From NCBI GenBank assembly GCA_035559815.1, contig DATMAT010000042.1, forward strand, positions 1-64,000: a DNA stretch of 64,000 nucleotides. Reading direction: 5' to 3'. Positions 3,337 through 7,251 of this stretch are shown here, piece after piece. A model generated the notes under the pieces. It was not told where the DNA came from and made no database searches. It saw only the letters and a list, made by a program, of their open reading frames with translations. The position numbers and the translations under genes were made by a program. How positions within the stretch are numbered: the first letter of the stretch is position 1; each line of letters opens with the position of its first letter. Origin of the DNA: Thermodesulfobacteriota bacterium (GTDB lineage Bacteria > Desulfobacterota_D > UBA1144 > Nemesobacterales > CSP1-2).

Positions 3337-3651
3337 TCAGTCGAGCGATTCCAGCGCATCCTGGAATTCAAAGACCATATCCATGTGGCCGTATCTCTCC
3401 GCCACTTCCATTCCCTTCCGATAAGCCTCTCTAGCTTCGTCCTTTCTCCCCAGCTTGAGTAGAGACTCACCCAGTATACGGTAGGCTGCACCTTCATCTT
3501 CCTTGAGTTTCAGGTATGCGCTGATCTCGGCAACGGCATGCTCATACATTCCCAATTTCAGGTATTCATTTGCCAGTCCGTACCGCCCCAGGGGGTTATT
3601 AGGGTCTTTTCTAGTTAACTCCTTTAATGTCTCTAACATAGATTTGCTCAT
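3337..3651 (-). CDS. Small tetratricopeptide-repeat protein
   Basis: A 104-residue soluble protein made of TPR-like helix pairs: NPLGRYGLANEYLKLGMYEH, then AAYRILGESLLKLGRKDEAR, with the usual Leu/Gly/Tyr/Ala spacing (about three repeats). Such proteins act as protein-protein adaptors; the partner cannot be deduced. It precedes the Yip1-like gene with a 14-base gap, suggesting a two-gene unit, possibly with the TPR protein acting at the membrane. Confidence 0.75.
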   Translation of the reverse strand: MSKSMLETLKELTRKDPNNPLGRYGLANEYLKLGMYEHAVAEISAYLKLKEDEGAAYRILGESLLKLGRKDEAREAYRKGMEVAERYGHMDMVFEFQDALESLD

Positions 3652-3742
3652 ATCAACCTCGTCCCTAGTGATTTTATACTAGATTCAGACAGTTAGGAAA
3701 GACAAACTTTTTTATTGACATCGTATAACCCTCCGTGAGATA

Positions 3743-4228
3743 ATGGCCTTATCCAACAATAATAGGAAACCGGCCTTGCGCAGAAAAGACAACCATATAA
3801 GAGTGTTGATTGTTGGCTCCGATGATTTTGCCAGGAAGGGTATAATTGATGCCCTAGCCGGGGAGGATGAAATAAACATCGAAGGCCATGCCTCCAATCT
3901 CTCTGAACTAGAGGACTATATCGATAAATTAACCCCGAATATCGTGATTGTGAACGACCAGGGCAAGGGAATCGGCAGGCTCGAAGCCATAAACCTTCTA
4001 AATAAGAAGATTAATGACCTTACCAAGATATTATTCCTGATCAACGATTATGATGAAGACCTAGAACTGACCGCACTCAAGATGGGGGTAAGAGGTTTTC
4101 TGCCTAAGAGCGTAGCTAAAGCCGACCTAATCAAGTGCATAAAGGCTATAAACACGGGAGAGATGTGGGTAAGAAGAAGGGTTATGCAAAAGCTGATAGA
4201 CCAGTTATTGAAAAAAGTCGGCAGCTAA
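3743..4228 (+). CDS. Stand-alone degenerate receiver-domain protein
   Basis: A 161-residue protein whose residues 18-140 follow a response-regulator receiver of the NarL/LuxR class: RVLIVGSDD, then TPNIVIVNDQGKGIGRLEAI, ILFLINDYDED, MGVRGFLPKSV and ADLIKCIKAINTGEMWV. The acidic pair (Asp27-Asp28) and the conserved Lys122 are present, but Asn71 sits at the phospho-acceptor position. The protein stops just after the receiver, where the DNA-binding domain would start. The next gene is a clear paralogue that keeps the DNA-binding domain. No histidine kinase is nearby. It probably works without Asp phosphorylation, perhaps as a dimer partner of its neighbour (inference). Confidence 0.75.
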   Translation: MALSNNNRKPALRRKDNHIRVLIVGSDDFARKGIIDALAGEDEINIEGHASNLSELEDYIDKLTPNIVIVNDQGKGIGRLEAINLLNKKINDLTKILFLINDYDEDLELTALKMGVRGFLPKSVAKADLIKCIKAINTGEMWVRRRVMQKLIDQLLKKVGS

Positions 4229-4261
4229 TAATCACACCCAGTATAAAACCTGTTATAATAA

Positions 4262-4984
4262 ATGAAGGAACATTCCCGAAAATCGTGGAGAGATTTCTAC
4301 AGGACTATATTAGGGTCTACCTCGATGGAAAGACAAACAACAGTGCTAATAAGCAGTAATAACGCCCTGTTGAGAGCAGGAATAAAGAGCATACTGAGCA
4401 ACGTCGAGGATATGCAAATTTTCGACGTTCCCAAAGACAGGCTGGAGTTACTCGAGTGTGTTTACACTTATAATCCCGATATTGTAATCTTGAGCGAGAC
4501 CGATTTGCTTGACTCCCACGGTTCAGAAATTATGCGACTGGTACTTCAAAAAGCCGTCCAAACCAAGTTCTTGTTGATAATAAAGGCTTATGATGAGGAC
4601 AAGGAACTGGCCTGGCTCAAGGCCGGGGTGAAAGGTTTCTTGACTGCAAACACCGGCAACGCCGATTTTATAAAGTGCATCAGAGCTGTAAAGCGTGGTG
4701 AGTTGTGGGTCAGGCGAAAACTACTGGAGAAGTACATAGAGCATCTGTCGATAATGCTGAACTTGTCCAGGAAAGACTATTCGCATGCACCATCCCTACC
4801 CAGTTTCAGCAGGAGGGAGATGGATGTGTTTATCATGGTCGGGAGGAATTACCGGAATAAAGAGATAGCGGAGAAGCTATCTATTAGTGAGAAAACGGTC
4901 AAGCATTACGTAGCCAGAATCTTTCGAAAACTTAACGTGAAAACAAGAAAAGATATCAGACGATATCTGAGTTTGGCCGTTTAA
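4262..4984 (+). CDS. LuxR-type regulator with degenerate receiver domain
   Basis: A 240-residue regulator: receiver-like domain (about 24-150) and a C-terminal LuxR/GerE helix-turn-helix (about 183-238; SFSRREMDVFIMVGRNYRNK, EIAEKLSISEKTVKHYVARI). The HTH looks intact, so DNA binding is expected. In the receiver, Ser78 occupies the phospho-acceptor position (PDIVILS), Thr128 replaces the conserved Lys, and the N-terminal acidic pair is lost (VLISSNN). It shares long motifs with the preceding gene (YDED.ELA.LK.GV.GFL, IKCI.A...GE.WVRR), showing tandem duplication. Met22 (4325) is an alternative start closer to the domain boundary. Confidence 0.8.
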   Translation: MKEHSRKSWRDFYRTILGSTSMERQTTVLISSNNALLRAGIKSILSNVEDMQIFDVPKDRLELLECVYTYNPDIVILSETDLLDSHGSEIMRLVLQKAVQTKFLLIIKAYDEDKELAWLKAGVKGFLTANTGNADFIKCIRAVKRGELWVRRKLLEKYIEHLSIMLNLSRKDYSHAPSLPSFSRREMDVFIMVGRNYRNKEIAEKLSISEKTVKHYVARIFRKLNVKTRKDIRRYLSLAV

Positions 4985-6498: not shown

Positions 6499-7251
6499 TT
6501 AAGCGAACAAATCGGATTGTTTAAGGACCTTTCTTTCTATACCCATCATGAACTCGGCATCGAATGCTCCATTTAGCATGTTAGCATCATTAGAAAAGAC
6601 GCCGTGAATCTCTCTATTAAATACTCTACTGAAGGCATTTATGACGCTGGTCTCAACTTTCATAATGTCTAAGTCTTCTTTTTCTCCGGTTATTTCTTTA
6701 ATAGAGGTTACACTCACCCCCTCAATCCCACAGGGGACTATCATTTGAAAATAGGATAAATCGGTATTCACGTTCAATGCGAACCCGTGATAGGTAATCC
6801 ATCTTTTAATGCCCACTCCTATCGAGGCGATTTTTTTTTCCGATATCCAAACTCCAGCGAGGCCCTTCCTCCTTTCCGCAGATATATCAAAATCTTGAAG
6901 TGTGAGGATAATCATCTCTTCGAGATTACGGAGATACTTATGAACGTCGCGGTTAAGTTTATTTAAATCCAAGATTGGGTATCCCACTAATTGTCCCGGG
7001 CCATGATAGGTTATGTCGCCGCCCCGGCTTATTACTTCGAAGTGGATGCCCTTTTCCTTCAATTCTTCCTGGGTTATTAAAAGATGCTCTGACTTCCTAT
7101 TTCTTCCGACCGTAAAAGTGTGAGGGTGCTGGAGAAGCAAGAGCACATCCTCTATCTCTTGATTCATTCTCTTTTCGAGCAGGCAAAGCTGAAGCTCAAG
7201 CGCCTTTTGATAGTCGACTATTCCTAGTCTGTAAACATTGAACCCGTCCAT
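6499..7251 (-). CDS. lipB: Octanoyl-[acyl carrier protein]-protein N-octanoyltransferase
   Basis: LipB moves octanoate from acyl carrier protein onto lipoyl domains, the first step of lipoate assembly. All family signatures are visible in the 250 residues: RGGDITYHGPGQLVGYP (76-92), LAGVWISEKKIASIGVGI with catalytic Lys140, WITYHGFALNV (151-161) and PCGIEGVSVTSI with catalytic Cys174. It is slightly longer than usual because of a C-terminal tail of about 40 residues. It lies on the same strand just after lpdA and close to the pyruvate dehydrogenase genes, whose E2 subunit is its expected substrate. No lipA is in the window. Confidence 0.93.
   Translation of the reverse strand: MDGFNVYRLGIVDYQKALELQLCLLEKRMNQEIEDVLLLLQHPHTFTVGRNRKSEHLLITQEELKEKGIHFEVISRGGDITYHGPGQLVGYPILDLNKLNRDVHKYLRNLEEMIILTLQDFDISAERRKGLAGVWISEKKIASIGVGIKRWITYHGFALNVNTDLSYFQMIVPCGIEGVSVTSIKEITGEKEDLDIMKVETSVINAFSRVFNREIHGVFSNDANMLNGAFDAEFMMGIERKVLKQSDLFA

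Follow-up and report, generated by a model that had tools for sequence, protein, structure and literature searches.

Tandem NarL/FixJ-type pseudo-receivers, one without a DNA-binding domain, in a Thermodesulfobacteriota genome

Regulators of the PsR/ALR type have a receiver fold that lacks the phosphoacceptor Asp and the Mg2+-binding acidic pair (PMC12632262, PMC4395418). After Glu, the most common replacements of the acceptor in ALRs are Asn (16%) and Ser (15%) (PMC12632262, PMC4395418). Among orphan, atypical regulators of the NarL/FixJ type, BldM and WhiI of Streptomyces work together as a functional heterodimer on DNA that activates promoters, and both are regarded as independent of phosphorylation control (PMC4125116). 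In the TrlR/TraR and CerN/CerM systems, a paralogue without a helix-turn-helix (HTH) domain antagonizes a full-length LuxR-type regulator, as supported by experiment (PMC3907764, PMC11655674); CerN and CerM are 31% identical (PMC11655674).

We analyzed a 64,000-nucleotide stretch of a Thermodesulfobacteriota genome (the window) in which two adjacent open frames on the forward strand, 3743-4228 and 4262-4984, encode proteins of 161 aa (S161) and 240 aa (L240). Like PsR/ALR regulators, both proteins combine a receiver fold with loss of the acceptor Asp and of the acidic pair, and the pair is one more member of the known pseudo-receiver class. The locus differs from PsR/ALR regulators described before in that two paralogues stand in tandem, one of which (S161) has no output domain. 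As orphan, atypical NarL/FixJ-type proteins, S161 and L240 also resemble BldM and WhiI, but both of the latter act on DNA, whereas S161 carries no DNA-binding domain. In being a paralogue of a full-length regulator minus the DNA-binding domain, S161 resembles TrlR and CerN. Those systems, however, carry autoinducer-binding domains where S161 and L240 carry receivers, and antagonism is only conjectural here. Nor is S161 always retained with L240, as the one other genome found to encode S161 (G005, 94% complete) has no L240.

Pfam searches of S161 returned a Response_reg match (E = 1.3e-7) and nothing else credible. L240 matched GerE (E = 2.6e-16) and, below the Pfam cutoff, Response_reg (E = 4e-5); it thus unites receiver and LuxR/GerE HTH in one protein, the NarL/FixJ architecture that S161 lacks. 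Both proteins rank with the weakest of the genome's 80 receiver matches. Receiver folds were confidently predicted for both by AlphaFold (S161, pLDDT 91.0 and pTM 0.86; L240, pLDDT 90.3 and pTM 0.69), and Foldseek matched the models to RcsB, LiaR, VraR, DesR, and NarL, with LiaR, VraR, and NarL the best matches of L240. The S161 model consists of a (beta-alpha)5 fold and a C-terminal helix (alpha-6, residues 134 to 149) that corresponds to the NarL-family linker, after which the protein ends. The absence of a LuxR domain from the first protein, as claimed in the sequence-only reading, is thus borne out by Pfam and by the model, and inspection by eye of the translated frames downstream of S161 in the window and in G005 revealed no frameshift or HTH remnant. 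The two receivers share 37.6% identity over 141 aa (E = 2e-23) and fall in a seven-member clade with support of 100/99, which upholds the proposed origin by duplication. Their similarity peaks in the alpha-4/beta-5/alpha-5/linker region, with contrasts to the rest of the receiver that are borderline (p 0.05 to 0.08). This region commonly serves receivers as an output and dimer face.

Alignment with NarL by HMMER places Asn71 of S161 (Asn60 in a 150-aa form discussed below) on Asp59 of NarL with no gap nearby, and the same residue is the last of beta-3 in the AlphaFold model; strand register and alignment therefore agree on Asn71 as the acceptor-site residue, as first read. For L240, the model favors Ser78 (Ser57 in a 219-aa form), the last beta-3 residue and the one originally proposed, while HMMER and MAFFT both place Glu79 (Glu58) on the acceptor column. 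The discrepancy arises because L240 contains one extra loop residue. No Asp occupies the acceptor column of S161 or L240 in any of the alignments made (HMMER against NarL, MAFFT). At the acidic pair (Asp13-Asp14 of NarL), L240 has Ser-Asn, and the conserved Lys is replaced by Ala. Loss of these residues had been proposed for L240 only, yet the pair is also gone from S161, which has Gly-Ser and keeps the Lys. The S161 orthologue in G005 has Asn at the acceptor position, Ser-Ser for the acidic pair, and Glu for Lys. Taken together, the sequences support loss of phosphorylation chemistry in both proteins.

Both open frames lie where they were originally placed, but their first ATG codons are doubtful as starts (Table 1). 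The -10 element of the S161 promoter ends at 3744 and covers part of the ATG at 3743, which therefore cannot start a message made from this promoter; the TATAAT element upstream of L240 ends at 4259, two bases before the ATG at 4262. S161 probably starts at TTG 3776, which is preceded by a Shine-Dalgarno-like AGGA and aligns with the start of the G005 orthologue, and L240 probably starts at ATG 4325. The S161 promoter forms a conserved block in the alignment with the G005 upstream region. With both strands of the 64 kb searched, its pattern, TTGACA-N15-TGN-NATAAT, was found a single time, before S161; the pattern is likewise placed before the G005 orthologue and before a related gene in another genome (G021:C55). 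A promoter scan of the region returned 12 promoter-like sites, compared with 2.9 expected in shuffled sequence. S161 and L240 thus each seem to have a promoter of their own, that of L240 being a candidate. No inverted repeats that could serve as operators were found upstream of S161, L240, or the G005 orthologue.

Table 1. Features of the S161/L240 locus, in window coordinates
Feature	Position	Strand	Basis or remark
TPR protein, left synteny anchor	3337..3651	-	Pfam TPR; present in 31/44 genomes of the order
S161 promoter, TTGACA-N18-GATAAT with extended -10 (TGN)	3715..3744	+	11/12 consensus positions
S161, stand-alone pseudo-receiver, 150 aa from TTG 3776 (probable start)	3776..4228	+	Response_reg, AlphaFold
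L240 candidate own promoter, ATCACA-N17-TATAAT, TG before -10	4231..4259	+	10/12 consensus positions
L240, pseudo-receiver plus LuxR/GerE HTH, 219 aa from ATG 4325 (probable start)	4325..4984	+	GerE, AlphaFold
lipB-like gene, right synteny anchor	6499..7251	-	Named by sequence resemblance; present in 43/44 genomes of the order

Among 58 genomes of the phylum, only G005 encodes an orthologue of S161 (63% identity, Asn conserved). This orthologue shares with the window the TPR and Yip1 genes and the side on which they are found, but is followed by an App1-like gene. No close L240 was found beside the orthologue or elsewhere in that assembly. A profile search of genome contigs with the alignment of S161 and its orthologue retrieved no relative beyond that of G005, and a search of viral sequences found none. 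In several genomes, including one of the same family (G001), the TPR gene and lipB adjoin with no gene between them. S161 is known from two sequences only; their pN/pS of 0.31, which is to be read as a comparison with neighboring genes (TPR, 0.25; lipB, 0.26; Yip1, 0.46) and not as a dN/dS estimate because synonymous sites are saturated, makes S161 look to be under purifying selection.

The clade that joins S161, its orthologue, and L240 also contains full-length regulators from family f3 and G021:C55, which keeps the acceptor Asp. L240 branches first within it, with weak support (89/77), and a sister relationship of S161 and L240 was not rejected (AU p 0.49); the tree thus cannot tell a family-specific duplication from an older one. 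A separate clade of receiver-only proteins in family f1 (100/99) indicates that HTH-less forms arose at least twice. Across the order, the acidic pair is absent from nearly all of the aligned NarL-type paralogues, whether or not they retain the Asp; the sample was selected for resemblance to L240 and S161 and is hence biased.

As the sequence-only reading had noted, no kinase is near the pair: the genome has 44 HATPase_c matches, all of them outside the contig that carries the pair (C42). In other families, a regulator related to S161 and L240 occupies the interval between lipB and the TPR gene, next to a kinase module. In two f3 genomes (G027 and G021), this full-length member of the same clade is divergent from a GAF/HisKA_2 kinase gene that is accompanied by CheY and MEDS-LuxR genes. 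A third (G042) has the regulator at the same place, next to a divergent gene that is only partly on the contig and was assigned to no family by search. The acceptor residue of these regulators is Asn (G027), Tyr (G021), or Asn (G042). With the Asp already gone beside a kinase, loss of the acceptor need not follow loss of the kinase. Regulator and kinase module are both missing from five genomes (G031, G017, G029, G013, and G019), and two others (G008 and G020) have the kinase module without the regulator. In G025, the lipB-TPR interval (L149 2192-2791) holds only remnants of the NarL-type regulator, interrupted by two TAG stops, and of a MEDS-LuxR gene. One regulator gene of G021 is split over two contig ends (L057 4553-5020 and L052 4842-5183) with an identical overlap.

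Two further arrangements were observed among NarL-type proteins. A second tandem, of a full-length regulator and a receiver-only protein of 155 to 158 aa, occurs at L056 4559-5026 and 5484-6176 (G000:C12) and also in L055, L054, and L053, making four genomes of the family; the Asp is kept and the acidic pair is lost. This tandem adjoins apparent NusG/RfaH-like, glmS, and UDP-sugar dehydrogenase genes. In addition, proteins of 469 to 492 aa (L003 1459-2937, L024 673-2121, L006 1474-2883, and L041 703-2124) chain a strong, canonical N-terminal receiver to a PAS domain, a second, degenerate receiver, and a LuxR HTH.

On balance, we lean toward reading S161 and L240 as phosphorylation-independent NarL/FixJ pseudo-receivers, of which S161 acts by contact and L240 is a candidate rather than an obligatory partner. 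L240 would bind DNA in an unphosphorylated state, with the level of the protein or a binding partner governing its activity. S161 would use its receiver faces and the retained linker helix to contact at least one NarL-type paralogue, L240 being one such candidate in this genome. The heterodimers of BldM and WhiI and the antagonists TrlR and CerN make contact-based action plausible. The absence of L240 from G005, a single genome, suggests that L240 is not the sole target of S161. Within the same family, receiver-only proteins of the NarL type have a second origin, and in four genomes they stand beside a full-length paralogue.

The two proteins may instead have unrelated jobs, having become neighbors by an old tandem duplication, with S161 acting on a histidine kinase, a canonical receiver, or another NarL-type regulator. 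We regard this as possible but doubtful. S161 is conserved without L240 in G005 and has its own promoter, and possible partners could lie among the genome's receiver matches (80) and HATPase_c matches (44); against this, the tandem is retained in this genome, and the two proteins are most alike on the putative dimer face.

The sequence-only reading had proposed a dedicated switch, in which S161 would titrate L240 into inactive heterodimers and so control its occupancy of DNA, as in TrlR/TraR. S161 and L240 are adjacent paralogues on the same strand, S161 matches L240 in architecture up to and including the linker helix but lacks the HTH, the dimer-face region is where they most resemble each other, and precedents exist in TrlR/TraR (PMC3907764) and CerN/CerM (PMC11655674). 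Exclusive pairing was not borne out, however: the sole orthologue of S161 lives without L240, and the two genes have separate candidate promoters. Absence of the pair from close relatives had itself been named as evidence against the switch, and G005 supplies it in part. We therefore consider dedicated titration unlikely.

It is very improbable that S161 is a decaying remnant, truncated after loss of a kinase system. Although the related regulator has decayed in G025 and is absent from the five genomes named above, S161 has an intact frame with a pN/pS of 0.31, and a similar end point recurs in a second genus together with the conserved promoter. Least credible of all is continued phosphorylation, through deamidation of Asn to Asp or substitution by a shifted acidic residue (Asp61 of S161, Glu58 of L240): an acidic residue follows the acceptor position in S161, its orthologue, L240, and the G027 regulator, and an Asn-to-Asp reversion in a receiver is on record (as cited in PMC4395418), but S161, its orthologue, and L240 all lack the Mg2+-binding pair, and the last two also lack the Lys.

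More broadly, and as a speculation to which we give little weight, the NarL-type regulators of this lineage may largely have moved off phosphorylation, with HTH-less pseudo-receiver paralogues as tunable partners of DNA-binding pseudo-receivers, a recurrent device of at least two origins. What switches bacterial pseudo-receivers on and off has been described as a mystery (PMC12632262). With many pseudo-receivers, natural HTH-less versions, and relatives that still lie beside a kinase at the same locus, this lineage provides a series in which pseudo-receiver switching may be tested.
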